Below the pieces are notes generated by a model, which saw only the letters and a program-made list of their open reading frames with translations, did not search any database and had not been told where the DNA came from. Both the position numbers and the translations under genes were made by a program. DNA of 37,198 bases from Candidatus Omnitrophota bacterium (lineage in GTDB: Bacteria; Omnitrophota; Gorgyraeia; JABMRN01; RBG-13-46-9). The stretch covers positions 244,388-281,585 of the forward strand of contig CP070780.1 of the NCBI GenBank assembly GCA_020346285.1, in the 5' to 3' direction. The stretch's first letter is position 1. Each line of letters starts with the position of its first letter. Shown here one piece after another: positions 9,400 through 23,072 of the stretch.

Positions 9400-9921
9400 A
9401 TGAAGATAAAAAAAGGCCTTGTGCAAATTTATACCGGTAACGGAAAAGGGAAGACCACCGCCGCCCTTGGCCTTGCGCTAAGAGCAGCCGGCGCCGGATT
9501 TAAGGTTTACATAGGCCAATTCATTAAAAGTAAGGCATACAGCGAGACAAAAGCGCTTAAAAAGATAAAAAACATTAAAATTGAGCAATACGGCAGGGGT
9601 TGTTTTATAAAGGGAAAACCCAAAAAAATAGATATAGAATGCGCCCGAAAAGGATTACGCAAAGCGCAAAAAAATATTATGTCGGGAAAATACGATATGA
9701 TTATACTGGATGAAGTAATTATTACTTTAAAACTTCGTATGATTAAAACGGAGGATATTATTAATATAATAAAAGGCAAGCCACGTTCTGCCGAACTTGT
9801 CTTAACAGGTAGATATTGCCCGCGAGGCCTCCTGAAACACGCTGACCTTATTACAAAAATGAAAGAGATAAGACATCCTTACAGAAAGGGCATAAAGGCA
9901 CGATTGGGCATTGAATATTAA
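9400..9921 (+). CDS. cobO: Cob(I)yrinic acid a,c-diamide / corrinoid adenosyltransferase, CobO/BtuR type
   Basis: A 173-residue cytoplasmic enzyme that attaches the 5'-deoxyadenosyl group of ATP to the cobalt of reduced corrinoids. It has the inverted-orientation P-loop GNGKGKTT near residues 11-18, the IILDEV strand, the LTGRYCPRGLLKHAD segment and the terminal GIKARLGIEY, all standard for CobO/CobA(BtuR). It sits directly upstream of the cobalamin riboswitch and is transcribed with the preceding genes, so it is functionally part of the B12 pathway but lies outside the riboswitch-controlled unit. No good ribosome-binding site is seen before the ATG. Confidence 0.93.
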   Translation: MKIKKGLVQIYTGNGKGKTTAALGLALRAAGAGFKVYIGQFIKSKAYSETKALKKIKNIKIEQYGRGCFIKGKPKKIDIECARKGLRKAQKNIMSGKYDMIILDEVIITLKLRMIKTEDIINIIKGKPRSAELVLTGRYCPRGLLKHADLITKMKEIRHPYRKGIKARLGIEY

Positions 9922-9983: not shown

Positions 9984-10012
9984 AATTTTGTTCTTTCAAA
10001 ATAAAGTATATA

Positions 10013-10197
10013 TAGGTGCCCGCGAGGGCTTAATAGGGAAGCCTGGAAACCCCGGCCTTGCATGCGCAAGGGCGGGATAAACAGGCACGGTCCCGCCGCT
10101 GTATCTACGGACGAAAGCCTCAAACTTATGCCACTGGTAAAAAGCCGGGAAGGTAGGGGTAAGTAGGATGAAGTAGGAGCCAGAAGACCTGCCTATG
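10013..10197 (+). promoter_or_regulatory. Cobalamin (adenosylcobalamin) riboswitch aptamer
   Basis: The aptamer shows the conserved blocks of the class in the right order: GGTGCC (10015-10020), GGGAAGCC, the CCCGCCGCTGTA segment, the GCCACTGG loop, CGGGAAGG, and the B12 box AGCCAGAAGACCTGCC (10178-10193). RNA of this class binds adenosylcobalamin or related corrinoids and shuts down downstream expression when ligand is abundant. Here it precedes the cobC-to-tonB gene run and is followed by a strong intrinsic terminator, so control by premature transcription termination is inferred. Aptamer borders are estimated to within several bases. Confidence 0.95.
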
Positions 10198-10262
10198 TAT
10201 TAAAAAGTCGAAAATCTCGAGGAAGATTAAGGCTGCAAAAAGGGTGAAGTAAATCAGGGTGC

Positions 10263-10315: not shown

Positions 10316-10357
10316 GGCCACAACTTATGGAACGAAGTGAACATAAGTTGTATGGCC
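10316..10357. repeat. Imperfect inverted repeat in the cobC leader, possible dispersed element
   Basis: GGCCA+CAACTTATG (10316-10329) pairs with CATAAGTTG (10342-10350) and TGGCC (10353-10357), leaving a 2-base TA bulge and a 12-base loop. No T-run follows, so it should not terminate. It lies between the riboswitch terminator and cobC, and the sequence after it up to 10393 (GAGCAAGGCGACGAGGGATC) resembles the GC-rich dispersed repeats seen in many uncultured genomes. Only one copy is in this window. Confidence 0.6.
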
Positions 10358-10393
10358 GAATTTATCCCGGGGAGCAAGGCGACGAGGGATCTC

Positions 10394-10951
10394 ATGAAAA
10401 AATTAATTCTAATCAGACACGGGGAAACCGCTTATACATTAAAGAGAAAATATTGTGGCCATGAGAATATCGCATTGAACGCCACAGGCATGGAACAGGC
10501 GAAGTGCCTCAGGCCTAAATTAAAAGATATAAAAATCGATACGATTTACTCCAGCGATTTAAAGCGTGCTTTTCAGACCGCAAAAATCGCCTTTCCAAAA
10601 AGGGCTATATTAAAGAAAAAAGGGCTTCGTGAAATTAATTTTGGCCGGTTTTCCGGTTTGACGTTTGAAGAAGCTGATAAGTTATATCCCAAATTCTATG
10701 GCACCTGGCTGAATAATCCTATAAAGGCGAAAATACCGAATGGCGAGAATTTTTCTGATTTTGCGGAAAGGATTGAAAGATGTTTTAACGCGATTTCGCG
10801 CCAAAATTCAAAAAAAACCGTAGCCCTCTTTACCCACGGAGGTCCTATACGGATTATTATTTTAAAAATTTTACAAAAAGGCCTCGATAAATTCTGGGAC
10901 ATAGAAGTGGGCACCGGAGATATTAATATAATGGATTTCAAAAATGGATAA
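10394..10951 (+). CDS. cobC: Histidine phosphatase, probable alpha-ribazole phosphatase
   Basis: A 185-residue phosphoglycerate-mutase-like phosphatase with the catalytic LIRHGET motif at residues 5-11, the downstream TIYSSDLKRAFQTA arginine/serine block and the second catalytic histidine in THGGP. As first gene of the riboswitch unit, next to cobU, cobT and cobS, it is best assigned to removal of phosphate from alpha-ribazole phosphate or the adenosylcobalamin 5'-phosphate product. The ATG at 10394 is preferred: GAGGG (10384-10388) lies 5 bases upstream and the protein starts at the usual family position. An in-frame extension to 10337 would translate the inverted repeat. Overlaps cobU by 8 bases. 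Confidence 0.88.
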   Translation: MKKLILIRHGETAYTLKRKYCGHENIALNATGMEQAKCLRPKLKDIKIDTIYSSDLKRAFQTAKIAFPKRAILKKKGLREINFGRFSGLTFEEADKLYPKFYGTWLNNPIKAKIPNGENFSDFAERIERCFNAISRQNSKKTVALFTHGGPIRIIILKILQKGLDKFWDIEVGTGDINIMDFKNG

Positions 10952-11462
10952 ATTCATTTTTGTAATAGGCGGGGCGCGAAGCGGGAAAAGCCGCTATGCG
11001 CAAGAGCTTGCAAAACAAAAAGGGGGAAAAACCGTCTTTTTTGCTACCTGTGTTCCTTGCGATAAAGAGATGAAAAAAAGGATATCGCGGCACAGGAAGG
11101 CGAGGCCGCGCCACTGGAGGGTTATAGAAGAGCCGAAAGATATAAAATCCGTTTTGCTTAAGCTGAAACGCAGGTTCGATGTGGTAATTATCGATTGCCT
11201 GGGCTTACTCGTATCAAATTTTTTATCGGATGGCTGGAAAGAAAGCAGGATAGAAAAAGAAATCAAGGCAATCGCCGGAATCCTGTCAAAAGCGAAATTT
11301 ACCGCCATAGTCGTATCAAATGAAGTCGGTGGCGGCATAGTCCCGGAAAATCCCCTGGCAAGAAAATTTAGGGATTTATTAGGCATATCCAACCAGGCAA
11401 TGTCGCAATACGCCGATATCGTTTATATTATGCAGGCAGGGATACCGGTTAGAGTCAAATAA
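10944..11462 (+). CDS. cobU: Adenosylcobinamide kinase / adenosylcobinamide-phosphate guanylyltransferase
   Basis: A 172-residue bifunctional enzyme that phosphorylates adenosylcobinamide and then transfers GMP to make adenosylcobinamide-GDP. The P-loop is GGARSGKS at residues 9-16, the guanylylated-histidine region is HRKARPRHWRVIEEP, and SNEVGGGIVPENPLARKFRD and a glutamine-containing NQAMSQYAD segment complete the family pattern. Length equals characterised CobU. It overlaps cobC and is followed after 14 bases by cobT. Confidence 0.95.
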   Translation: MDKFIFVIGGARSGKSRYAQELAKQKGGKTVFFATCVPCDKEMKKRISRHRKARPRHWRVIEEPKDIKSVLLKLKRRFDVVIIDCLGLLVSNFLSDGWKESRIEKEIKAIAGILSKAKFTAIVVSNEVGGGIVPENPLARKFRDLLGISNQAMSQYADIVYIMQAGIPVRVK

Positions 11463-11476
11463 AAAAGGAGGAAACA

Positions 11477-12565
11477 ATGGATATCTTAAAGAAAACGCTG
11501 GAGAAAATAGAAAAAATTGATTACGCGCTTTCGGAAAAAACACAAAAAAGGCTGGATAATCTCACTAAACCGCAAGGAAGCCTCGGCCGCCTGGAAGAGC
11601 TTGCCGGGAAAATAGTGGATATTACAGGGAACGAAAATCCTTCGATTAAAAATAAGGTTGTATTTACTATGGCAGGAGACCATGGCATTACGGAAGAAGG
11701 CATAAGCGCGTATCCGAAAGAGGTGACGCCCCAGATGATTTACAATTTTATAAGAGGGGGCGCCGGAATTAATGTATTGGCCAGGCACGCAGGAGCCAGG
11801 ATTGTCGTGGTTGATATGGGAGTAGCGGAAGAGTTAAAAATTAAAAATGAAAAATTAAAAATTAAAAAGATAAATTACGGGACAAAAAACATGGCCAACG
11901 GGCCGGCGATGAGTAAGAGCGAAGCGATAAGGTCAATCGAAGCGGGGATAGAGGTATTCGAAGAAGAATTGCCAAATGGCATAGACATAGTGGGTACCGG
12001 TGACATGGGTATCGGAAACACTACTCCCTCAAGCGCTATATCCTCCATTATAACAGAAAGGCCTGTAACAGACATGACGGGCAGGGGAACCGGTATAGAC
12101 CAGCGGGCCTTGTCCAATAAGATTACGCTAATCGAAAAAGCTATCAGCGTGAATAAACCGGATGCCAAAGACGCGATAGACGTTTTATCCAAAGTCGGCG
12201 GATTTGAGATAGGGGGCCTGGCGGGCGTAGTTTTGGCGGCGGCCTCAAGAAGAATTCCTGTCGTAATTGATGGCTTTATTTCGGGAGCGGCGGCATTGAT
12301 AGCTTATCAATTAGAGCCAAAGGTAAAGGACTATATGATTGCCGCTCATTGTTCCGTAGAAAGGGGGCATAGAATCATTCTTAACTATTTAGGCCTTAAA
12401 CCCCTTCTGGATTTTGACCTGCGCCTCGGAGAAGGAACGGGCGCGGCTTTAGCAATGACTGTTATCGAGGCCGGCATTAAAATTTTGGCTGAAATGGCTA
12501 CATTTCAAAGCGCGGCTGTTTCCGAAAAGATCGATAAGCATAGCGATGAGCTTGTCAAAGGATGA
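11477..12565 (+). CDS. cobT: Nicotinate-nucleotide-dimethylbenzimidazole phosphoribosyltransferase
   Basis: A 362-residue cytoplasmic enzyme that makes alpha-ribazole phosphate, the lower-ligand nucleotide of cobalamin, from nicotinate mononucleotide and a benzimidazole-type base. Recognisable blocks are LDNLTKPQGSLGRLEELA, FTMAGDHGITEEG, GTGDMGIGNTTPSSA, the QALIAY-like substrate helix, and LRLGEGTGAALAM, which carries the catalytic glutamate. AAAGGAGGA gives a strong ribosome-binding site, the best in the operon. Residues about 120-131 are a lysine-rich stretch encoded by an A-rich direct repeat that looks inserted. No DMB synthesis gene is visible, so the base is presumably scavenged or made elsewhere. 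Confidence 0.96.
   Translation: MDILKKTLEKIEKIDYALSEKTQKRLDNLTKPQGSLGRLEELAGKIVDITGNENPSIKNKVVFTMAGDHGITEEGISAYPKEVTPQMIYNFIRGGAGINVLARHAGARIVVVDMGVAEELKIKNEKLKIKKINYGTKNMANGPAMSKSEAIRSIEAGIEVFEEELPNGIDIVGTGDMGIGNTTPSSAISSIITERPVTDMTGRGTGIDQRALSNKITLIEKAISVNKPDAKDAIDVLSKVGGFEIGGLAGVVLAAASRRIPVVIDGFISGAAALIAYQLEPKVKDYMIAAHCSVERGHRIILNYLGLKPLLDFDLRLGEGTGAALAMTVIEAGIKILAEMATFQSAAVSEKIDKHSDELVKG
11834..11869. repeat. A-rich direct repeat (TTAAAAA units) inside cobT
   Basis: Four TTAAAAA heptamers are interrupted by one TGAAAAA variant (11848-11854), and all are translated in frame as a Lys/Leu/Ile-rich stretch of cobT. This differs sharply in base composition from the gene on either side. It falls in a surface-loop position just after the VVDMGVA motif, where other CobT proteins vary, so the enzyme should tolerate it. 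Confidence 0.7.
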
Positions 12566-13308
12566 AGAGATTTTTTATCGCATTACAGTTTTTGACGATT
12601 CTGCCTATCAGGATTAAAGCGGAAATAAAAGAAAAGGATTTCGGCAGGTCTCTGGCATATTTTCCGATAGTCGGATTGCTGCTCGGCCTTGTCCTGGTAT
12701 CAGTTCTATTCGCTTTTAATTTCCTGCCAGGTTTTGTTACGGCGGCATTGATGTTAACGATTTCTGTTATTATAACAGGCGGAATTCATCTCGACGGTTT
12801 TGCTGACACCTGCGATGGCCTCTACGCAGGCAAATCCAAACAAGAGGCCTTAAAAGTTATGCGGGACCCGCATATCGGGGCAGTGGGCGCAATCAGCGTA
12901 GCATCCCTTCTCATATTAAAGTTTGCGCTTTTTTACGGCATCTCTCTTAATTTTTTGTGGAAGATACCGGTTATCATGGCTGTATGGGGGAGGTATTCGC
13001 AAGTTTTATCCTGTTATCTATCCGGTTATGCGAGGGAGAACGGCAAAGCTAAATACTTTATCGAATACGCGTCAAAAAGAGAATTATTTTTCAGCACCGT
13101 ATTTACCCTTGCGTTATCGGTATCACTTATGAAGGTAAAAGGCCTTATTGTATCCGTTTTAACCTTAGCGATGTTATTGTTGATTATAAACTATATAAAA
13201 AGGCGAATTGGCGGCATGACGGGGGATACCATCGGCGCAACAAGTGAAATCACAGAGATGGCCGTGCTCTTTCTTGCGTTAATTTGTGCGAATATACCGT
13301 GCTTTTAA
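12562..13308 (+). CDS. cobS: Adenosylcobinamide-GDP ribazoletransferase (cobalamin synthase)
   Basis: A 248-residue integral membrane protein that joins adenosylcobinamide-GDP and alpha-ribazole (phosphate) in the last assembly step. It starts with the family motif FFIALQFLTILPI and carries the conserved GGIHLDGFADTCDGLYAG region and MRDPHIGAVGA, with acidic residues that bind metal. Several hydrophobic segments follow, and GGMTGDTIGATSEITE near the C terminus is diagnostic. It overlaps cobT by ATGA, so the two are translationally coupled. Confidence 0.95.
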   Translation: MKRFFIALQFLTILPIRIKAEIKEKDFGRSLAYFPIVGLLLGLVLVSVLFAFNFLPGFVTAALMLTISVIITGGIHLDGFADTCDGLYAGKSKQEALKVMRDPHIGAVGAISVASLLILKFALFYGISLNFLWKIPVIMAVWGRYSQVLSCYLSGYARENGKAKYFIEYASKRELFFSTVFTLALSVSLMKVKGLIVSVLTLAMLLLIINYIKRRIGGMTGDTIGATSEITEMAVLFLALICANIPCF

Positions 13309-14237
13309 TAATTTCTTGTTATATTGCCGATTTAATCTTTGGCGACCCGGAATGGTTTCCGCATCCCGTGAGGGGCATGGGAAAATTAATAGGCCTATTG
13401 GATAAGCGGCTAAGAAGGGGTAGCCTCGCAGGGATTGAGCGAACAAAGGGGGCTATGCTGGCATTTATCGTAACGGGGATAAGCGCTTCTCTTGCATATT
13501 TGTTTATAGAATTCTCGAAGAAGCTAAACCCTTTTCTCGGAAGCCTGGCCTGGATTTATCTGGGCTACACTACTCTCTCGATAAAAGATTTACAGGTCAA
13601 GGCAAAAGCGATATTAAAAGAGATAGAAAGCGGTTCTATCATCGGAGCCCGCACAAGGCTTTCTGAAATAGTAGGCAGGGATACGCAAAATTTAAGCAAA
13701 GACAGGATAATCGTGGCTACGATAGAAAGCGTCGCCGAGAACATTAATGACGGTATTATAGCCCCTCTTTTTTACCTGATTTTAGGCGGGCCTGTTCTAG
13801 CCGTAGCTTATAAAAGCATAAACACCCTTGATTCCATGGTGGGATATAAAAATGAAAAGTATATCCATTTTGGCTGGTTTCCGGCAAGATTAGACGATGT
13901 CTTTAATTTTATTCCCGCGCGAATCTCCGGGTTCTTAATCTCTATATCCTCTTTTATCATCGGCAAGGGCTTTACGGGCTCCTTTAAAACGATGCTTCGG
14001 GATGGCAAAAAGCACCCTTCGCCGAACAGCGGAATATCGGAGGCGGCGATGGCCGGTGCCCTTGGAATAAGGTTAGGCGGTATATGGTCTTATCAAGGGA
14101 AGTTTTCCGCGAAACCCTATCTTGGAAAACGGAAAAGGGTTCCGCAGCCCTTTTTTATAAGTAACGCATTAACCATAAGCTTGATTAGCTCTATTTTAAT
14201 GGTTTTCACGGGGGTTGTTTTAAAATGGCTAATTTAA
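13299..14237 (+). CDS. cbiB: Adenosylcobinamide-phosphate synthase
   Basis: A membrane protein of about 312 residues that condenses adenosylcobyric acid with (R)-1-aminopropan-2-ol O-phosphate. It begins with the family motif LIFGDPEWFPHPVRGMG; later come LSEIVGRDTQNL, ESVAENINDGIIAPLFY, SMVGYKNEKYIHFGWFPARLDD and PSPNSGISEAAMAGALG, all standard for CbiB. The start is uncertain: GTG at 13299 gives the usual family N terminus and overlaps cobS by 10 bases, a TTG at 13284 would add five residues, and neither has a visible Shine-Dalgarno. Its presence means the pathway can start from cobyric acid, not only cobinamide. The name cobD is used for it in aerobic-pathway nomenclature. Confidence 0.92.
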   Translation: MLLIISCYIADLIFGDPEWFPHPVRGMGKLIGLLDKRLRRGSLAGIERTKGAMLAFIVTGISASLAYLFIEFSKKLNPFLGSLAWIYLGYTTLSIKDLQVKAKAILKEIESGSIIGARTRLSEIVGRDTQNLSKDRIIVATIESVAENINDGIIAPLFYLILGGPVLAVAYKSINTLDSMVGYKNEKYIHFGWFPARLDDVFNFIPARISGFLISISSFIIGKGFTGSFKTMLRDGKKHPSPNSGISEAAMAGALGIRLGGIWSYQGKFSAKPYLGKRKRVPQPFFISNALTISLISSILMVFTGVVLKWLI

Positions 14238-15271
14238 ACTTTTTACACGGCGGGAATATTCATGAGGCCAGGAGAAGGCATGGAAAAGAAATAATCGATT
14301 TCAGCGCAAATATCAATCCCCTGGGTTTGCCTGCGAACGTAAAGGCCTCTATTTATAGAAATTTCGACGCGGCTCTCAATTATCCTGACCCTGATGCAAG
14401 AGATATAACCAGAGAAATAGCCAAATACTGGAATATAAAAGAAGAAAATATTCTCGTTGGCAACGGTTCCGCCGAACTCATCTATCTTATTGTTTCTGCC
14501 TGCAGGCCAAAGACAGTACTTATGCCTGCGCCAAGCTTTTCCGAGTATGAGCGCGCGGCTCGGGGCGCGGGAAGCAAGCCCGGGTTTTTAAAACTCAGGG
14601 AAAAAGATGGCTTTAAACCCGATTTTCCCGGCGCCGGCAATGCCGATATCCTCTTTATTTGCAATCCCAACAACCCCACAGGAAATGTTATTGTAGATAG
14701 CTGCCGGGATCTTATAAAATTGCCCAATAAATTCGCTGTTATTGACGAGGCCTTTATGGACTTTTTGCCATGCGAGAAAGAACATACGCTGATTTGGGAA
14801 GCCCGAAAAAATAAAAAAATTATTGTATTAAGAAGTTTTACCAAATTTTTCGCGCTTCCCGGATTAAGAATAGGCTATCTGGTAGCGCATAAAGATTTCG
14901 TTAAATTTTTGCGGCGGCATCAAATACCCTGGAGCATAAATGCATTTGCCCAGTTAGCGGCAAAAAGAATATTGAGCAATAAAGTATACATTAAAAAAAC
15001 GCGGCTACTTATAGAAAGGGAAAGAAGCTTTCTTTTTGATGAAATCTCCGGGATTAAAGGATTAACCCCTTATCCCTCGGTAACAAATTTCATTTTGATA
15101 AAAATAACAAAACCGGGCGTAACTTCAAAATCCTTAAAAGAATCGCTTATTACGAAAGGCATTCTTATAAGGGACTGCAGTAATTTCCGGGCCTTAAATG
15201 ATAAATATATCCGTGTAGCCGTGCGTTCCCGTAAAGAAAACTTGAAATTGCTTAAAGCATTAAAGAGTTAG
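14225..15271 (+). CDS. cobD: L-threonine-O-3-phosphate decarboxylase (CobD, aminotransferase fold)
   Basis: A 348-residue PLP enzyme of the histidinol-phosphate aminotransferase family. The LHGGNIHEA start and DFSANINPLG are distinctive for CobD, which makes aminopropanol phosphate for CbiB. The Schiff-base lysine is Lys207 in SFTKFFALPGLRIGYL, and ICNPNNPTG is the cofactor loop. The gene overlaps cbiB, its pathway partner, by 13 bases. No cysteine-rich C-terminal extension of the kind seen in some archaeal versions is present. The kinase that would supply threonine phosphate (PduX type) is not in the window. Confidence 0.93.
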   Translation: MANLNFLHGGNIHEARRRHGKEIIDFSANINPLGLPANVKASIYRNFDAALNYPDPDARDITREIAKYWNIKEENILVGNGSAELIYLIVSACRPKTVLMPAPSFSEYERAARGAGSKPGFLKLREKDGFKPDFPGAGNADILFICNPNNPTGNVIVDSCRDLIKLPNKFAVIDEAFMDFLPCEKEHTLIWEARKNKKIIVLRSFTKFFALPGLRIGYLVAHKDFVKFLRRHQIPWSINAFAQLAAKRILSNKVYIKKTRLLIERERSFLFDEISGIKGLTPYPSVTNFILIKITKPGVTSKSLKESLITKGILIRDCSNFRALNDKYIRVAVRSRKENLKLLKALKS

Positions 15272-15292
15272 AGATAACAAAGCTTGGCCATA

Positions 15293-16159
15293 ATGAACGA
15301 GGGTTTACTTTTTTCCGGCGGTTTGGATAGCTCTATTTTAGCGGCATTTAACCCTAAAATCACAGCTATTACGGTAAATTTAGAATCTTCGGGGGAAGAT
15401 ATCCATTATTCTAAATCATTAACAAGGCATCTCAATATAAAACATCTCTGCAGGGAAGTGGCTATCGAAGAAGCCATAGAAGCCATTCCAAAAGTAATAA
15501 AAATACTTAAAACCTTTGACCCCGCCATTCCCAACGATTTAGTCGTTTATTTCGGGCTGAAATTGGCGAAGAAACTGGGTATAAGCGAGGTAACGACAGG
15601 GGATGGAAGCGATGAGCTTTTTGCGGGCTATTCTTTTATGCGGGAAATAGGGAATCTAAAAGATTATATTCATCATATATCGCAAAATATGAAATTTAGC
15701 TCTAATGAATTAGGGGAATTCTTTAACATTCGCATAAAGCAGCCTTTTATGGACAAAAAGATTATCAACATGGCTTTGGATATACCGGCAGGGCTCAAAA
15801 TAAGGGAAGAAAACGGAAGGGTTTGGGGTAAGTGGCTCTTGCGTAAGTCATTTGAAGGCATGTTACCAAAAGAGATTCTCTGGCAGGACAAAAGGCCCTT
15901 AGAGGTCGGTTCGGGCATGAACGGCCTTCGCCGGATTGTTTCCGGCAAAATATCAGACGAAGAATTCAGGGAGAGGCCTGCTTCCATAAAATTTATGAAT
16001 AAAGAACATTTTTATTATTATAAAATATATAGAAATATAATCGGAGAAATACCCGGGCCGATCGGGGAAGAGAAAGAATGCCCCGGTTGCGGCGCCGGGA
16101 TAAATCCTCTCCTTTTTCATTGTAAAGTGTGCGGGCATGTTAAAAAAAAGGAAATGTAG
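15293..16159 (+). CDS. Asparagine-synthetase-like PP-loop ATPase with C-terminal zinc ribbon (unassigned, B12 operon)
   Basis: About 288 residues. The ATP-pyrophosphatase P-loop is FSGGLDSS at the very start, and TTGDGSDELFAGYSFM is the second signature of the asparagine synthetase C-terminal domain. The glutaminase (Ntn) domain that normally precedes it is absent, so ammonia or another amine must be the nitrogen source, or a partner supplies it. The C terminus has a CX2C-X10-CX2C zinc ribbon (CPGC...CKVC). It lies between cobD and a second PP-loop gene in the riboswitch unit and abuts the latter without spacing, so a B12-related amidation is the natural guess. No such reaction has been assigned to this subfamily to my knowledge. 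ATG at 15293 is preferred over TTG at 15284; neither has a strong ribosome-binding site. Confidence 0.82.
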   Translation: MNEGLLFSGGLDSSILAAFNPKITAITVNLESSGEDIHYSKSLTRHLNIKHLCREVAIEEAIEAIPKVIKILKTFDPAIPNDLVVYFGLKLAKKLGISEVTTGDGSDELFAGYSFMREIGNLKDYIHHISQNMKFSSNELGEFFNIRIKQPFMDKKIINMALDIPAGLKIREENGRVWGKWLLRKSFEGMLPKEILWQDKRPLEVGSGMNGLRRIVSGKISDEEFRERPASIKFMNKEHFYYYKIYRNIIGEIPGPIGEEKECPGCGAGINPLLFHCKVCGHVKKKEM

Positions 16160-16831
16160 ATGAAAGCTTTTATTTCATGGAGCGGCGGCAAAGAGACTGC
16201 TCTTTCGTGCTATAAGGCAATACAAAATAGGCACATTCAGGTTAGTTATCTTTTAAATATGATTTCAGAGGATGGCAAGCATTCCCGTTCTCACGGAGTC
16301 AGCTCAAAATTATTGAAACTGCAGGCAGAAGCAATAGGAATTCCCATTATTCAAAGAAGGACTGCATGGAAAGGATATGAGGGGGAATTTAAAAAAGCTG
16401 TTTCACGCTTAAAAGAAAAAGGCGTAGATACAGGTATCTTTGGAGATATTGATCTTCAGGAACACCGGGATTGGATAGAAAGGGTCTGTAAAGATATAGG
16501 CATAAAACCCGTATTGCCCTTATGGAAGAAAAAAAGAGAAGAATTGCTTAAGGAGTTTATTCGGGTAGGTTTTGAAACAATTGTCATTTCGGTTCGAGCT
16601 GATATTCTGGGTAAAGAATGGCTGGGCCGGCATGTAAACGAAGATTTTATAAACGACCTGAAAAAAAAGGAGCATATCGACCTGTGCGGGGAAGCCGGCG
16701 AATATCACACCCTTGTCGTTTCCGGCCCTATATTCAAGAAAAACATCATGATATTGAACGCAAAGAAAATCAAGAATGGCAAACATTGGTTTTTGGATAT
16801 TTTAGATTATGAAATTACCGAAAAAGTTTAA
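16160..16831 (+). CDS. DUF71/COG2102 (Dph6-like) PP-loop ATPase, probable B12-salvage subgroup
   Basis: A 223-residue adenine nucleotide alpha hydrolase. The PP-loop is WSGGKET at residues 7-13, and the C-terminal GEAGEYHTLVVSGP block (about 177-190) corresponds to the GE-x-GE-[FY]-HT variant that, as I recall, comparative genomics associated with a B12-salvage subgroup, unlike the diphthamide ligase Dph6. Bacteria lack diphthamide, which supports the B12 reading. Members should adenylylate a carboxylate and form an amide, but the reaction of the B12 subgroup is not established. It starts directly after the asparagine-synthetase-like gene, with AAGGA at 16148-16152, and overlaps btuF by 23 bases. 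Confidence 0.85.
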   Translation: MKAFISWSGGKETALSCYKAIQNRHIQVSYLLNMISEDGKHSRSHGVSSKLLKLQAEAIGIPIIQRRTAWKGYEGEFKKAVSRLKEKGVDTGIFGDIDLQEHRDWIERVCKDIGIKPVLPLWKKKREELLKEFIRVGFETIVISVRADILGKEWLGRHVNEDFINDLKKKEHIDLCGEAGEYHTLVVSGPIFKKNIMILNAKKIKNGKHWFLDILDYEITEKV

Positions 16832-17669
16832 CAGATTTACTGTAATTTTTTTACTGTTACTACCTGTCGCAACCGCAACCGGCGAACAACCCAGAAGGAT
16901 AGTTTCTCTGGCGCCGTCAATAACGGAAAACCTGTACAGATTGGGCGCGGAACAGGCCCTGATAGCAGTAACTTCTTATTGTAATTATCCGCCGCAAACA
17001 AAAACAAAGGAGGTAATAGGGTCGTTGAGCAACCCAAATATCGAAAAGATTTATTCCCTTTCTCCCGATTTAGTACTTGCAATCAATGGAATAAATCCTC
17101 CGCAAACAGTAGAAAAGTTAAAAAATTTAGGCCTGAAGGTTAATATCCTTAACAAATGTCATGATTTCGACGATATCAAGAGAAATTTTACAGAGTTAGG
17201 CAGGATAGCAGGGAAACACGAAAGGGCGGACGAAATCATAAAAGAAATAGAAATCGAAATAAATTCTGTAACACAAAGAATGAAAGACCGGCGCCCCGTG
17301 AAGGTCTTTTGGGAAATAGGGGCACGGCCCCTGGTTACCGCCAGCGCTAAATCTTTTGCTAATGAGTTTATCAGGTATGCCGGTGGCATTAATATTTTTG
17401 CCAATGCGCCGGTTGAGTATCCCCAAATAAGCCGCGAAGACGTTCTTAATAAAAACCCTGAAGTAATTATGCTGGTTACGATGGGCAACGTGACAGGAGC
17501 GGAAAAATTACGTTGGCAGAAATTCAAAGATTTAGAAGCGGTTCAAAACGATAGAATTTGCATTATTAATGCCGATAAAGTCTGCCGGCCGACACCCATG
17601 GGTTTTTTAACGGGGCTAAAGGCGGTGGCAAACTTTCTGCATCCCGAAGCCTTCGAGGAGACAGAATAA
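16809..17669 (+). CDS. btuF: Periplasmic cobalamin-binding protein of ABC transporter
   Basis: A 286-residue substrate-binding protein with a cleavable signal peptide (roughly residues 1-24: charged KLPKKFNRF, then a hydrophobic core). The mature part begins with RRIVSLAPSITENLYRLGA and continues with SYCNYPPQTKTKEVIGSLSNPNIEKI, typical of the BtuF/FecB cluster with a two-lobed fold joined by a long helix. EIGARPLVTASAKSFANEFIRYAGG is the C-lobe signature. It delivers corrinoids to the BtuC permease encoded next. The start overlaps the DUF71 gene by 23 bases. The B12 assignment rests on the operon; haem or siderophore binding would be possible on sequence alone. Confidence 0.92.
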   Translation: MKLPKKFNRFTVIFLLLLPVATATGEQPRRIVSLAPSITENLYRLGAEQALIAVTSYCNYPPQTKTKEVIGSLSNPNIEKIYSLSPDLVLAINGINPPQTVEKLKNLGLKVNILNKCHDFDDIKRNFTELGRIAGKHERADEIIKEIEIEINSVTQRMKDRRPVKVFWEIGARPLVTASAKSFANEFIRYAGGINIFANAPVEYPQISREDVLNKNPEVIMLVTMGNVTGAEKLRWQKFKDLEAVQNDRICIINADKVCRPTPMGFLTGLKAVANFLHPEAFEETE

Positions 17670-17671
17670 TC

Positions 17672-18664
17672 TTGAACAAAAAGCGAGTTTTGATATTTGC
17701 TTCCCTAATCGGAATATTCGGTATCAGTTTTGTTGTCTCGAATCTGGTCGGGGGAAGCGAGTTAAAATTTACAAGGGCTCTATATTACCTTTTTCACCCG
17801 GGTTCAGCAGGGATAGAAAGAGACATTATCTGGCAAATCCGCTTTCCCAGAATTATTTTAGGATTGCTTGTGGGGGCGGGTTTGGCCTCCTGCGGAACGG
17901 TATTTCAGGGGCTTTTGCGCAATCCTTTAGCCGAGCCTTATACATTGGGTATTTCTGGCGGAGCTGCTTTAGGAGTAACGGTAGGGGTTCTTTTAGCCGC
18001 TTCCGGGGCGTATCTTCCTCTTTTTGCTTTCGCAGGCAGCGGCTCAAGCGTATTTTTAGTATATACTATTGCTTCAAAAAAACGTTTCTCCAATTCTGCC
18101 CTGATTTTGAGCGGAGTTATATTGAGCTTTCTATTTTCCTCGCTGGTTTTTTTAATCTTTTCCATTTCCGGGGCAGAAGATGTCCATGGAGTAATCCTTT
18201 GGCTGATAGGAAACCTTTCTTCAGCCCAGACGTACTTAATAAAAATCATTCCTTTTTTTATTCTTCCGGGCATCGGTCTGTTTCTAATCTTTTCCCGGGA
18301 TCTCAACATTCTCACTTTAGGGGAGGAAAAAGCGCTGCATTTAGGCGTTAATTCAAAACAGGTTAAAAAACTGCTTTTTATCGCGGCATCCTGCATTACC
18401 GGTGCCTGCGTAGCGGCATCGGGGATAATCGGTTTCGTGGGATTAATAATTCCCCATTTCATGCGAAAGATAGTCGGCGTTGACCATCGGCTGCTTTTGC
18501 CTGCCTCATGTATAGCGGGGGCAAGCTTTCTTATTCTCTGCGATGCCTTAGCCCGTGGCATTATCCGGCCCCTGGAATTACCGGTGGGGGTAATAACAGG
18601 GATATTCGGGGGGTTATTTTTCTTAAGTTTTTTATTTAAATCCAAACGCTGGGAAATTTTTTAG
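17672..18664 (+). CDS. btuC: Cobalamin ABC transporter permease (FecCD family)
   Basis: A 330-residue inner-membrane permease with about ten hydrophobic segments. Family motifs are RFPRIILGLLVGAGLASCGTVFQGLLRNPLAEPYTLGISGGAALG in the N-terminal half (positions about 53-97) and ASGIIGFVGLIIPHFMR, which contains the loop contacting the ATPase. It starts with TTG at 17672, with GAGGAG at 17655-17660 upstream, two bases after btuF, and is followed by btuD after three bases. The substrate assignment comes from the riboswitch and gene context. Confidence 0.94.
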   Translation: MNKKRVLIFASLIGIFGISFVVSNLVGGSELKFTRALYYLFHPGSAGIERDIIWQIRFPRIILGLLVGAGLASCGTVFQGLLRNPLAEPYTLGISGGAALGVTVGVLLAASGAYLPLFAFAGSGSSVFLVYTIASKKRFSNSALILSGVILSFLFSSLVFLIFSISGAEDVHGVILWLIGNLSSAQTYLIKIIPFFILPGIGLFLIFSRDLNILTLGEEKALHLGVNSKQVKKLLFIAASCITGACVAASGIIGFVGLIIPHFMRKIVGVDHRLLLPASCIAGASFLILCDALARGIIRPLELPVGVITGIFGGLFFLSFLFKSKRWEIF

Positions 18665-18667
18665 GAA

Positions 18668-19474
18668 ATGGGTATACTGAAGGTCGAAAATCTATCATGC
18701 GGGTATAACAGGAGAGATATTATTAGAGGTATATCTTTTTCGGTAAAAGAAGGGGGGTTCTTAGGTATAATCGGACCAAACGGAGCGGGAAAAACGACTC
18801 TTTTCCGCGCTATAACCGGTATATTAAGGCCGCGGAAAGGAAAGATTTTATATTGTGGTAATGATATTTCCGGGATTTCGCCACAGAATTTTGCGCGAGA
18901 AGTAGCCGTCATACCGCAAATTCTAGAGGTGCCGTTTGCTTTTTCGGTAGAAGAATTTGTATTAATGGGGCGTTTTCCCCATACGGGCCGATTTGAGGCG
19001 TTGAACAAGCGCGACTACAAAATATTGGAAGAAGCTTTAAATTTGACGGAGACTTCTTCCTTTCGTGGCCGGAAAATACTGGAGTTATCGGGCGGAGAAA
19101 GACAAAGAGCAGTTCTTGCTCAGGGTTTTGCCCAGGAGCCACGCCTTCTATTGCTGGATGAGCCGACATCGCACCTGGACATCGCCCACCAGGTCCAGGT
19201 TTTAGACTTACTTAAGAGGTTAAATAAAGAAAAAAACTTAACAGTAATTATAGTTTTACACGATTTGAACCTGGCAAGTAGTTATTGTGACCGCTTAATT
19301 TTGCTTAAGGAAGGAGATATCTTTAAGGATGGTTCGCCGCAAGATGTTCTCACATATCAAAATATCGAGCGCGTCTACAACACGGTAGTGGTAGTAAGAA
19401 AAAATCCCATCGATCTTAAGCCCTATATATTATTGGTTACCGAAAAAGAAAAATGTTCCAGAAAAGACGTGTAA
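18668..19474 (+). CDS. btuD: Cobalamin ABC transporter ATPase
   Basis: A 268-residue ATP-binding subunit with Walker A GPNGAGKTT, Q-loop IPQILEV, signature LSGGERQR, Walker B LLLLDEPTSHLD and switch histidine in VLHDLNLA. It powers BtuC. A C-terminal extension of some 30 residues after the usual domain end includes KPYILLVTEKE, common in this group. Only an A-rich AGGA immediately before the ATG is visible, so translation probably relies on coupling with btuC. The btuB start lies inside its 3' end. Confidence 0.94.
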   Translation: MGILKVENLSCGYNRRDIIRGISFSVKEGGFLGIIGPNGAGKTTLFRAITGILRPRKGKILYCGNDISGISPQNFAREVAVIPQILEVPFAFSVEEFVLMGRFPHTGRFEALNKRDYKILEEALNLTETSSFRGRKILELSGGERQRAVLAQGFAQEPRLLLLDEPTSHLDIAHQVQVLDLLKRLNKEKNLTVIIVLHDLNLASSYCDRLILLKEGDIFKDGSPQDVLTYQNIERVYNTVVVVRKNPIDLKPYILLVTEKEKCSRKDV

Positions 19475-21477
19475 TAATTTCCGTATTGATAATTAATGCG
19501 TTATCCTTAAACAACTTTTGCGGATTAGCCTTAGCGGAAGAGCCGAAAGGCGTTAAATCTGATATCATTGATTTAGAGCCGATATCAATAACGGCCTCCA
19601 GAATAGAAAGAAAATTATCGGAAGTCTCATCGAGTATAAACATTATTTCCGAAAAAGAGATTAAGGATTCAAGCGCAAAAAGCGTTCCTGATTTATTAAA
19701 AGACTCGGAAGGCGTTTATATGTATGACTCTTCCGGCGTAGGAACAGCCGGCAGAATAAATATGAGGGGATTCTGGGGCGGGATGTCGACGCATCAATTA
19801 ATACTCATAGATGGGATACCGCAGAACAAAGGCACCGATAAACTCGTAGATTGGGATTTAATTCCACTTGGCAATATCGAAAGAATTGAAATACTAAGGG
19901 GCCCCGCATCGGCCCTTTACGGCGACAATGCCATGTCCGGGGTAATTAATATTATTACCAAAAGGCCGAGTGTTATTCCGGAAATAAAGATTTCCGCTTC
20001 TGGTGGAAATTATAGCACCTGGAACTACAAGTGCTCAATTTCAGGCGCTTCTAAGAAAGTCGGCTGCTACCTTAATGCAAGCAGAAAAACAACCGATGGA
20101 TTCAGAAAACACAGCGATTATGAAGGTAACCATTTCGGCGGAAAACTGGATTTCTTAATTGATAAGGTACAAAATTTAAGACTCTCCTTAGATTACCACG
20201 AAAAAGAAAGAGGGGCCCACCCCTGGGCCATAAAAGACACCCAGATCGAGGAGGATAGGCGCCAGGCAAGACCGGGCTCGGAAAATGATAAGAGCGAGGC
20301 TGAAAAAATCAATATGGACATAACCTATCATAGAGATATAAGCGAGGCCTCAAGGTTTGAAACGACATTTTATTATAGATACGAGGATAGCGAATCCTTT
20401 TATACCAGCGGTTCTAAAACTACTTCCACAAAAGAGCAGCTTGAAGATGAAGATAGCTATGGCTTACTTCTACGGTTAAATACGAATCCGGAAGTTTTTG
20501 GCATGAAACATTCTCTTACCGCGGGGGTTGATTTAGAAAAAAATGATGTTGATTACCAAGAGTATGCCGCGCCTTATCAGGTAAGGGGCGATATTCGCAA
20601 AGATTATAATATTGAGAGATACAAAATTGGCCCTTATATTCAAGACGAAATTAAACTTTTTGATCCACTCAAGTTTATAGCAGGAATAAGATATGATTTG
20701 ATAACCTTCGACTTTACCAATTGTGAAGATGAAAATAATTCAAGCAAAAAACAGATGTCTGAAATAACCCCAAAATGCGCGCTAAGTTACGCTTATCAAA
20801 AAAAATCCAATATCTATACTAATTATGCCAAGGCATTCAGGACCCCTACGATAGGGCAGCTATTTACCTACGGAAGCTCCTCTGACTCTGATCTAAATCC
20901 CGAAGAAGCAACAAATTATGAAGTAGGGGTACACCATCGATTTAACGATAACTTAAAAACAAATGTTTGTTTATATTGGATGAGGCTCGATAACGAGATT
21001 TGGTATGATTCTGCTGACAAAAAATATAAAAATTACGGTAAAACCACCCATAAGGGAATAGAGGCCCGCTTAGATTACAAAATTATTGAAGAGTTGAGCG
21101 GTTTTGTTAATTACGCTTATACCGGAGCCAAAAACGAAAGCGATGAATATAAAGGTAATTATCTAACCAATATTCCCATACATAAGGGGAGCCTTGGTTT
21201 GAGGCTTGAGACAGATTTCGGGTTAAGGATAAACTTGATCGCAAGCAAGGTTGGCGCCTCCTATATAGATTCAGCAAACGACGATAAGCTTTCTGATTTT
21301 CTTACGATAGATACTAAAATTGATTATAAACATAAAAGGTGGTCAATTTTTTTAGCAATTGATAATCTTCTAAATGAAGAATATAATTCCTATGGTTATA
21401 AAACATCAGCTCAATTAAAATATTTTAATCCGGCTCCGAAAAGAACATTTACCTTTGGAATAGGGCTGGAATTTTAA
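19453..21477 (+). CDS. btuB: TonB-dependent outer-membrane receptor, probable corrinoid receptor
   Basis: A 674-residue outer-membrane protein. The signal peptide is residues 1-28 with a likely cut after LALA. A TonB box (ISITAS, residues 44-49) is followed by the plug domain with SVPDLLKDSEGVYM, INMRGF, LILIDGIP and IERIEILRGPASALYG. The remainder forms a 22-strand barrel of alternating hydrophobic residues that ends in the outer-membrane insertion signature FTFGIGLEF with terminal Phe. The start overlaps btuD by 22 bases, and exbB, exbD and tonB follow, so receptor and energising complex are co-expressed. Corrinoid substrate is inferred from the riboswitch operon. Confidence 0.92.
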   Translation: MFQKRRVIISVLIINALSLNNFCGLALAEEPKGVKSDIIDLEPISITASRIERKLSEVSSSINIISEKEIKDSSAKSVPDLLKDSEGVYMYDSSGVGTAGRINMRGFWGGMSTHQLILIDGIPQNKGTDKLVDWDLIPLGNIERIEILRGPASALYGDNAMSGVINIITKRPSVIPEIKISASGGNYSTWNYKCSISGASKKVGCYLNASRKTTDGFRKHSDYEGNHFGGKLDFLIDKVQNLRLSLDYHEKERGAHPWAIKDTQIEEDRRQARPGSENDKSEAEKINMDITYHRDISEASRFETTFYYRYEDSESFYTSGSKTTSTKEQLEDEDSYGLLLRLNTNPEVFGMKHSLTAGVDLEKNDVDYQEYAAPYQVRGDIRKDYNIERYKIGPYIQDEIKLFDPLKFIAGIRYDLITFDFTNCEDENNSSKKQMSEITPKCALSYAYQKKSNIYTNYAKAFRTPTIGQLFTYGSSSDSDLNPEEATNYEVGVHHRFNDNLKTNVCLYWMRLDNEIWYDSADKKYKNYGKTTHKGIEARLDYKIIEELSGFVNYAYTGAKNESDEYKGNYLTNIPIHKGSLGLRLETDFGLRINLIASKVGASYIDSANDDKLSDFLTIDTKIDYKHKRWSIFLAIDNLLNEEYNSYGYKTSAQLKYFNPAPKRTFTFGIGLEF

Positions 21478-21531: not shown

Positions 21532-22152
21532 ATGTTGGAAATTTTACAAAAAGGGGGACCTGTCATGTATCCCCTCGTTTTATGCTCGATAATTTCGCTG
21601 ACGATAATAATCGAGCGCCTTATTTTTTGGCTCAGATTAAAAATGGAACGAAATAGAAACGTTTTAAACATAATATTAAGACTGGGGGAGAAGGGTAAAT
21701 TAAACGAGGCCATAAAGGTATGTAAAGAAACGGACGATACCATAGCCAAGATTCTTCTCGAAGGCATAAAGAATTATAATTACAGTTTTGTCAGCGCGCT
21801 TGAAGCCGCGGCAACAAATGAAATAAATATAATGAAAAAATATATGGTGATACTGGATACCATCATATCCCTCGCGCCTCTTTTGGGCATATTCGGAACG
21901 GTAACCGGCATTATCATATCCTTCGGCATACTCGGAAAAGGGCCTTTGGTAGACCCGGGCGCCGTTACGGGCGGCATAGCTCAAGCGCTGATTACAACGG
22001 CTTCGGGGCTGGTTATAGCCATTTTTACCCTTATCCCGTTTAATTACTTCAACAGCCTTATCGAATCAAATGCGCAGGAAATCGAAAAATATGTCAACGC
22101 TTTAGAAATAGCACAGTGGAAATACAAAAAACAAAATGAAAATAAGCCTTAA
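21532..22152 (+). CDS. exbB: ExbB-type proton-channel subunit (MotA/TolQ/ExbB family)
   Basis: A 206-residue inner-membrane protein with three hydrophobic segments. The first is near residues 11-27 (MYPLVLCSIISLTIIIERL), and the conserved LDTIISLAPLLGIFGTVTGIIISFGIL and ITTASGLVIAIFTLIPFNYF pair line the proton path. Together with ExbD and TonB it converts the proton gradient into TonB movement. AAGGGGG precedes the ATG. It comes 54 bases after btuB and overlaps exbD by 17 bases. Confidence 0.93.
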   Translation: MLEILQKGGPVMYPLVLCSIISLTIIIERLIFWLRLKMERNRNVLNIILRLGEKGKLNEAIKVCKETDDTIAKILLEGIKNYNYSFVSALEAAATNEINIMKKYMVILDTIISLAPLLGIFGTVTGIIISFGILGKGPLVDPGAVTGGIAQALITTASGLVIAIFTLIPFNYFNSLIESNAQEIEKYVNALEIAQWKYKKQNENKP

Positions 22153-22543
22153 TATAAAAAAACCGAGGATAGAATTAATACCGCTCCTCGACATGATTTT
22201 TCTTGTCCTTGTATCTTTTGTATATACGTTTCTTTCGATGACTATTCAAAAAGGCATACCCGTGCGTTTACCTTTCGCGCAAAGCGCAATTGAGGATAAA
22301 AAAGAGTATCTTATCGTTACGATCACCGAAGAAAACATTATATATATAAATAAAAATCGGGTAGTTTCTCAGGATTTAATTACCGAGCTTAAAAAATATA
22401 AAAATATAAATCCCGAAATCAAGGTATTTCTAAATGCGGATAAAAATGTTATTTACGATAAAGTTATAGAGATTCTCGATTCAATCAGGCAATCCGGCAT
22501 AGAAAAGGTCTCTCTTGAGACATCCATTTATAATGAACAATAA
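22136..22543 (+). CDS. exbD: ExbD-type biopolymer transport protein
   Basis: A 135-residue protein with one N-terminal membrane helix and a periplasmic domain. Asp19 in ELIPLLDMIFLVLVSFVY is in the place of the essential proton-carrying aspartate of ExbD/TolR. The periplasmic part (LIVTITEENIIYINKNRV, then VFLNADKNVIYDKVIEILD) matches the family. It overlaps both exbB and tonB, as expected for a translationally coupled energising complex. Confidence 0.92.
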   Translation: MKISLNIKKPRIELIPLLDMIFLVLVSFVYTFLSMTIQKGIPVRLPFAQSAIEDKKEYLIVTITEENIIYINKNRVVSQDLITELKKYKNINPEIKVFLNADKNVIYDKVIEILDSIRQSGIEKVSLETSIYNEQ

Positions 22544-23072
22544 TTTCTTTATATCTTCTTTTTTATCGATTTTTATCCACGCTTTATTTCTCTTTTTTCC
22601 CGCTAATCTTTTTCCTGTAAAAATGGCGGATATCGACATTGATATAATAAAAGCCCCCACAAGTATCGAAATATCCATAGCCCGGCCAATATCGCAAATA
22701 AAAGTAGAGACAAAAAAAATAGAGGGCGTTTCGATAAAAGATGAAATCACGCCGCCTGAAGAGAAAGCTATCAACGCAATCCCGGCAATCGGGGCGTTAA
22801 CCAGGCAAATCTCTTCGCTCATGGTAAATAGGCCCCCTCGATATCCAAGGCTTGCCCGAATCAACGGGTGGGAGGGGGAAGTTACCCTGATCGCGAATAT
22901 AGATAACAAAGGAGAGGTTACAAGCGTGAGCATATTTTCAAGCTCCGGTTTTTATATTCTTGATGAAGCGGCAAAAAAAGCTATAACCGGGTGGCGCTTC
23001 AGAAACATCCCCAAATCCATTAAAGTCAAGATTCCCGTAAAATTCATTCTTGCCGGGGGCCCAGCCGAGTAA
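22533..23072 (+). CDS. tonB: TonB-family energy-transducing protein
   Basis: A 179-residue protein with an N-terminal membrane anchor (NNNFFISSFLSIFIHALFLFF, including the usual histidine) and a C-terminal TonB domain: PPRYPRLARINGWEGEVTLIANID and the terminal GWRFRNIPKSIKVKIPVKFIL. It would reach the TonB box of the BtuB-type receptor. The ATG at 22533 overlaps exbD by 11 bases; an in-frame TTG at 22515 is unlikely because it lies before the membrane anchor. The linker is short and lacks the Pro-Lys/Pro-Glu repeats of enterobacterial TonB. It is the last gene of the B12 unit; no intrinsic terminator is visible before the next promoter. Confidence 0.9.
   Translation: MNNNFFISSFLSIFIHALFLFFPANLFPVKMADIDIDIIKAPTSIEISIARPISQIKVETKKIEGVSIKDEITPPEEKAINAIPAIGALTRQISSLMVNRPPRYPRLARINGWEGEVTLIANIDNKGEVTSVSIFSSSGFYILDEAAKKAITGWRFRNIPKSIKVKIPVKFILAGGPAE

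Follow-up and report, generated by a model that had tools for sequence, protein, structure and literature searches.

The genome of a Candidatus Omnitrophota bacterium (assembly GCA_020346285.1, contig CP070780.1; 1.43 Mb in one contig) raises the question of what an asparagine-synthetase-like protein does in an operon for B12 salvage. The window, that is, the whole stretch of 37,198 nucleotides analysed here, contains one such operon on its forward strand, from cobO through a BtuB-like receptor gene (Table 1). The protein encoded at 15293-16159 and its family are given the label AsnX here. The initial annotation suggested that AsnX and the adjacent DUF71 protein carry out together one step of corrinoid amide repair or remodelling.

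The operon and its host genome

The initial annotation described an asparagine-synthetase-like protein with a CX2C-X10-CX2C motif and no glutaminase domain, directly abutting a DUF71 protein in the interval between cobD and btuF. This description is correct. The two proteins match PF00733 and PF01902, respectively, and the DUF71 start codon abuts the AsnX stop codon. The genes CbiZ, CbiA and CbiP had been reported as absent from the window, and the absence extends to the entire genome. In the whole-genome search CbiZ was not found, CbiA and CbiP were not found (the sole match was a GATase at 1e-6), and CbiC was not found. Because it lacks CbiZ, CbiA, CbiP and CbiC, the organism is regarded as a corrinoid salvager. 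After the BtuB-like receptor gene, ExbB-, ExbD- and TonB-like genes were read from the sequence only (window 21532-23072), and they probably power corrinoid uptake.

Table 1. Features of the B12 salvage operon, in window coordinates
Feature	Position	Strand	Evidence
cobO/btuR, ATP:corrinoid adenosyltransferase	9400..9921	+	PF02572 E=3e-63; TIGR00708 above cut-off
Cobalamin riboswitch RF00174, ahead of operon	9997..10210	+	92.1 bits vs gathering score 31.5
cobC-like histidine phosphatase, start codon uncertain	10337..10951	+	PF00300 E=5e-55; ORF
cobU, cobinamide kinase/guanylyltransferase	10944..11462	+	PF02283; NF004469 above cut-off
cobT	11477..12565	+	PF02277 E=2e-138
cobS	12562..13308	+	PF02654 E=9e-56
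cbiB, adenosylcobinamide-phosphate synthase	13284..14237	+	PF03186; TIGR00380 above cut-off
cobD, threonine-phosphate decarboxylase	14225..15271	+	TIGR01140 311 bits, above cut-off
AsnX, AsnB-type synthetase domain without glutaminase	15293..16159	+	PF00733 E=5e-36; relatives 55-63% identity
AsnX zinc knuckle CPGC..CKVC, approximate coding region	16085..16144	+	four conserved Cys
DUF71-B12 subgroup protein, motif EAGEYH	16160..16831	+	PF01902 E=2e-59
btuF	16809..17669	+	PF01497; top NCBIfam match BtuF, under its cut-off
btuC	17672..18664	+	PF01032 E=2e-87
btuD	18668..19474	+	PF00005
btuB-like TonB-dependent receptor	19453..21477	+	PF00593 and PF07715

The AsnX protein

AsnX shares with the AsnB synthetase domain (PF00733; PDB 1CT9) the fold, the SGGxD PP-loop, the SDE(L/V)F(G/A)GY motif and the catalytic lysine. 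Unlike AsnB, it has no N-terminal glutaminase, carries an extra zinc knuckle and is set in a B12 operon. The GATase-2 glutaminase domain, with its Cys1, was found neither in the window AsnX nor in the family. The scores against curated AsnB models are below their cut-offs (TIGR01536, 98 bits with a cut-off of 267; NF006949, 134 bits with a cut-off of 499). The predicted structure of the full-length L008 homologue (mean pLDDT 94) is best matched by the AsnB synthetase domain, and the best solved-structure match of AsnX is E. coli AsnB.

The knuckle at the C-terminus of the window protein is CPGC-x10-CKVC. The four cysteines are kept in 74-76 of 75-77 AsnX homologues, and where the knuckle is missing, the protein is in most cases truncated or disrupted by a frameshift. 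Across 81 aligned AsnX proteins there is almost no variation in the PP-loop, the TGDxSDE motif, the lysine or the four cysteines, and the window AsnX retains all 51 of the columns with at least 95% conservation. According to the alignment, an almost invariant FDPAIPND replaces the AsnB segment YDVTTIRAS (TTIRAS), which we take to serve aspartate activation. In addition, TGD stands for SGE, and the catalytic Glu is replaced by Asp. Human ASNS requires Glu-364, and its Lys-466 is conserved and essential in bacterial AS-B (PMC6748925). In AsnX, the counterpart of Lys-466 is kept, and Asp occupies the position of the Glu.

The window protein differs from its relatives at the N-terminus. An N-terminal helix of about 20 residues has been lost (window 15272-15301) with the remainder of the gene intact, and in-frame stops are present at its expected place. 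An alternative TTG start is possible at 15284. In the relatives, the asnX start overlaps the cobD stop.

Relatives within the same phylum have 55-63% identity and are well separated from other Asn_synthase proteins. A FastTree analysis placed AsnX in one clade against a small outgroup sample of about a dozen other Asn_synthase-domain proteins; thus, where the initial annotation had allowed that AsnX might group with true asparagine synthetases, it stands apart from those compared. On one explanation of the locus, AsnX lies in B12 operons by chance, being either an asparagine synthetase that has diverged or an unrelated amide ligase. The structural match to E. coli AsnB is in its favour. However, the genome has a separate gene for full-length AsnB at C1:284214, AsnX forms its own clade, both TTIRAS and the catalytic Glu are replaced, and the B12 linkage recurs across phyla as described below. 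We give this explanation almost no credence.

The beta-lactam and carbapenam synthetases resemble AsnX: they have the AsnB fold, form amides by adenylylation and do so without ammonia from glutamine. They differ from it in forming an intramolecular lactam and in keeping a remnant glutaminase domain, and the identity is only about 20%. AsnX had no match to TIGR00313 or GATase_3. Judged from its sequence, AsnX is thus at most an analogue of CbiP/CobQ and not a homologue. CbiP/CobQ is a protein of about 500 residues that combines a dethiobiotin-synthetase-like ATPase with a class-I glutaminase and uses glutamine, whereas AsnX is an adenylylating enzyme of the PP-loop type, about 300 residues long and without a glutaminase.

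Distribution of AsnX and its exchange with CbiP

Bacterial and archaeal genomes were scanned, and 80 AsnX loci were kept. They are from Omnitrophota, Elusimicrobia, Nitrospirota, Desulfobacterota, Aerophobetes, Aminicenantes, Chloroflexota, Methanophagales and others. The initial annotation had made its proposal depend on the recurrence of the pair with B12 genes and cobalamin riboswitches in other genomes. On the fetched stretches, at least two B12 salvage or transport genes are near AsnX in 62 of the 80 loci, and DUF71 is on the same stretch in 58 (at most 400 bases from AsnX in 46), so that the pair does associate with B12 loci in many phyla. A cobalamin-class riboswitch was present in 13 of the 16 bacterial AsnX loci tested, and one in L016 ends some 200 bases ahead of asnX. 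The search gave no hit in seven distant loci from archaea or Chloroflexota. About ten AsnX loci have no B12 neighbours (archaea, Dehalococcoidia and one spirochaete MAG), and these count against a corrin-amidase function. Most AsnX genomes are those of salvagers without CbiA or CbiC, and CbiC is missing in 47 of 50.

Several neighbouring genes were also recorded. In the Methanophagales loci L071, L078 and L080, AsnX is divergent from a HemD-like uroporphyrinogen-III synthase gene (Pfam-confirmed in L071) and no DUF71 is nearby; this is a different tetrapyrrole link. A CbiE-like precorrin methyltransferase is in an AsnX salvage operon that has no other corrin-ring genes (L015:13967-14635). In several loci, two more radical SAM genes occupy the interval between DUF71 and btuF (L012:8953-10547, L021:4254-5859); one is NrdG-like and one starts with MGVYHITY.

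Directly after asnX in six loci (L008, L012, L015, L021, L028 and L072) is the gene for the cobopeptide CbpA, a conserved ribosomal peptide of 35-38 residues (TIGR04164, two of them checked by model) with the core RKKCKANGTGLSHY. It is followed by its radical SAM maturase CbpB (TIGR04163), which is also found beside CbiP in L101, L105, L108 and L122. AsnX might therefore modify CbpA and not a corrinoid, and asparagine-synthetase-like peptide cyclases exist elsewhere. Against this, CbpB is in just 10 of the 80 AsnX loci, it also accompanies CbiP in the four loci named above, where AsnX is lacking, and it is missing from the window genome (best score 41 bits, cut-off 375). This role was set aside and is considered very improbable.

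AsnX is in the same operon as CbiB and CobD in 34 of 77 searched loci. Such a position would suit an alternative linker ligase, which by adenylylation would join a non-ammonia amine to the cobyric acid f carboxylate as CbiB does, by comparison with beta-lactam synthetase. AsnB-fold synthetases without a working glutaminase do use amines, and two of them, the beta-lactam and carbapenam synthetases, are close to AsnX in fold. However, CbiB and CobD already cover this step in those same 34 operons.

The relation to CbiP was examined in 174 Omnitrophota genomes of at least 85% completeness. CbiB was found in 32 of them, CbiP in 32 (16 of these with CbiA), CbiZ in 2 and AsnX in 8. Among the 32 genomes with CbiB, 24 have CbiP, 6 have AsnX, none has both and 2 have neither ([[0,6],[24,2]]; Fisher p=3e-5, with kinship ignored). 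Among those with both CbiB and DUF71-B12, 6 have AsnX and 8 have CbiP, and none has both or neither (Fisher p=3e-4, with kinship again ignored). Counted by family, about five AsnX families are set against five CbiP families. The relation is meaningful only within CbiB genomes, since over all 174 it is not significant (p=0.35). In one of the two CbiB genomes with neither gene (G006), the contig stops right after cobD (L111), and in the other (G039) the CbiB is a 28% divergent homologue (L112). Over the wider survey, in which most genomes are incomplete MAGs, CbiP was found in none of the 34 genomes, from many phyla, where AsnX lies with CbiB. It is present in 4 of 77 AsnX genomes (G214, G237, G242 and G249), and these four count against a replacement. 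A linker ligase would leave the exclusion of CbiP unexplained, and we consider that alternative rather improbable.

AsnX and CbiP also exchange within one slot ahead of DUF71, as observed in four syntenic pairs. The order BtuB-TonB-AsnX-DUF71-BtuFCD (L103) corresponds to BtuB-x-TonB-CbiP-DUF71-BtuFCD (L114), and CobS-AsnX-DUF71 (L022/L031) to CobS-CbiP-DUF71 (L113). The window order CbiB-CobD-AsnX-DUF71-BtuFCD corresponds to CobD-CbiB-CbiP-DUF71-BtuFCD (L115), and CobD-AsnX-CbpB-DUF71 (L008) to CbiB-CbiP-CbpB-DUF71 (L101). Scores of about 530 bits against TIGR00313 identify the CbiP genes of L100 and L101 as true cobyric acid synthases. AsnX and CbiP/CobQ (TIGR00313) are thus alike in the slot before DUF71, in the vicinity of CbiB/CobD and in their mutually exclusive occurrence. 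If the prediction for AsnX holds, they would also be alike in making primary amides of corrin carboxylates.

A lone GATase_3 domain beside cobO in one AsnX operon (L033:5256-5882) has 38% identity to the CbiP C-terminal domain and is possibly a CbiP remnant. Its nucleophile motif is GISGG (GISGGFQML) in place of GICGG. The expected catalytic Cys reads Ser, so this domain is not claimed to be active as an ammonia source for AsnX.

Because AsnX excludes the known corrin amidase CbiP, a corrin-amide reaction is now the leading hypothesis. We propose, with a probability of roughly 55%, that AsnX is a corrin side-chain amide synthetase that has taken the place of CbiP (CobQ, cobyric acid synthase) without being homologous to it. 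The proposal starts from the observed family membership, conserved active site, operon context, CbiP exclusion and common slot. The substrate, the ammonia donor and the regiochemistry would follow from the exchange with CbiP, and the b, d, e and g carboxylates would be the targets by analogy.

The DUF71-B12 partner and the proposed pathway

The PP-loop ATPase domain of the window DUF71 protein (PF01902) covers residues 1-215. The DUF71-B12 subgroup, as defined by de Crecy-Lagard et al. (2012, PMC3541065), has the motif E-N-G-E-[FY]-H, in which His replaces the Glu of Dph6. The window protein is a member by its EAGEYH motif (E-x-GE[FY]H) and its position directly upstream of btuF, beside btuFCD and cbiB. 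The His motif is present in all 68 readable AsnX-linked DUF71 proteins. According to that paper, bacterial genomes with CbiB have either CbiZ or DUF71-B12 in strict anti-correlation, and a CbiZ-like role is predicted; in its available part, AsnB is noted only as a fusion in a few archaea, with a glutaminase domain. A literature search for asparagine synthetase with corrinoid or cobyric acid did not find the AsnX family or the AsnX/CbiP exchange. DUF71-B12 was thus already known, and the link to AsnX appears to be new.

The published prediction can be extended to the pair. AsnX and DUF71 would remodel cobamides at the f side chain in place of the amidohydrolase CbiZ, and CbiB would rebuild the released cobyric acid with a new lower ligand. 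The published anti-correlation points in this direction, and the window genome has CbiB and CobD without CbiZ. However, the operons of L021, L027, L031 and L050 hold CbiZ together with AsnX and DUF71, and in L050 a BtuF-CbiZ fusion protein is encoded directly upstream of the pair (L050:1677-3716). The initial annotation's absence of CbiZ is therefore not a general trait of the pair. Of the 38 Omnitrophota genomes with DUF71-B12 (B12-type, strong match, roughly at least 150 bits), 24 lack CbiB, and cobyric acid would be a dead end in them. A replacement for CbiZ would be absent where CbiZ is present and would always occur with CbiB, and the four loci with CbiZ and the 24 genomes without CbiB show neither behaviour. 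Remodelling would also be superfluous in de novo operons such as L049, and hydrolysis does not require ATP. We consider such remodelling unlikely. Because CbiZ and DUF71 share operons and many DUF71 genomes lack CbiB, the idea of DUF71-B12 as a stand-in for CbiZ is weakened as a general role.

DUF71-B12 is present without CbiB, CbiP and AsnX in 21 of the 38 genomes, typically in the operon BtuFCD-CobC-U-T-S-DUF71-BtuB, and it is absent from all 16 Omnitrophota genomes with CbiA. Thus, of the step proposed in the initial annotation, the corrin-amide chemistry is retained, but the two proteins do not necessarily act in one joint step. DUF71-B12 seems to act in the same pathway as AsnX, and is possibly a second ammonia-dependent corrin amide ligase.

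Some Desulfobacterota have AsnX among genes of the de novo pathway. In L049 and L061 the order is CbiC-L-D-ET-FG-H-AsnX; DUF71 is next in L049, and the contig of L061 ends. In L055/L142, CbiK, L, C, ET, F, G, H, CbiB and CobD are on one contig with AsnX-DUF71, and in L062/L143, CbiC, D, E, L, F and G occur with CbiB-CobD-AsnX-DUF71. No CbiP was found in the genomes of these four cases. One enzyme of the pathway thus seems to be missing, and AsnX, with or without DUF71, presumably fills the gap. The four are MAGs, and three look closely related; the number of independent lineages may be as low as two or three. Any CbiA homologue in the de novo AsnX genomes adjoins dsrAB (DsrN type). It could perform the a,c-amidation, and this is counted against the proposal for AsnX. 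CbiA-like genes in AsnX genomes had been considered as a sign that the de novo pathway was complete except for CbiP; this was dropped, since they are beside dsrAB (DsrN) or resemble the F430 enzyme (Methanophagales).

To our knowledge, CbiA/CobB and CbiP/CobQ are the only enzymes credited with forming the six primary amides of the corrin ring. Adenylylation by AsnX would follow from its family, whose fold and PP-loop it has. In the proposed reaction, AsnX would first activate the carboxylate (corrin-COOH + ATP → corrin-CO-AMP + PPi), and then ammonia would act on the adenylate (corrin-CO-AMP + NH3 → corrin-CONH2 + AMP). The target is probably a propionate or acetate carboxylate of a corrinoid at the cobyrinic acid level, and the product would go to CbiB and CobD. 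In the window genome, AsnX would act in salvage, completing or repairing imported corrinoids with free carboxylates, and its role in a few Desulfobacterota would be in de novo synthesis. Imported corrinoids should be fully amidated beforehand, which counts against a need for AsnX or CbiP in salvagers. The candidate uses there are the repair of corrinoids with hydrolysed propionamides and the use of incomplete corrinoids. CbiB does not strictly depend on CbiP or AsnX, because CbiZ-bearing CbiB salvagers without both exist in other bacteria. A wider proposal is that AsnX and DUF71-B12 form a second, non-homologous solution to corrin amidation, replacing CbiA and CbiP de novo in some Desulfobacterota and completing or repairing deamidated corrinoids in salvagers. 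This is tentative, and we regard it as doubtful.

If the proposal for AsnX is true, an unrelated amidase would fill a gap in the prediction of B12 pathways in Omnitrophota, Desulfobacterota, Aerophobota and others. Marker-gene calls on which organisms make or rebuild B12 would change. The DUF71-B12 question of 2012 would then become a testable two-enzyme assay.
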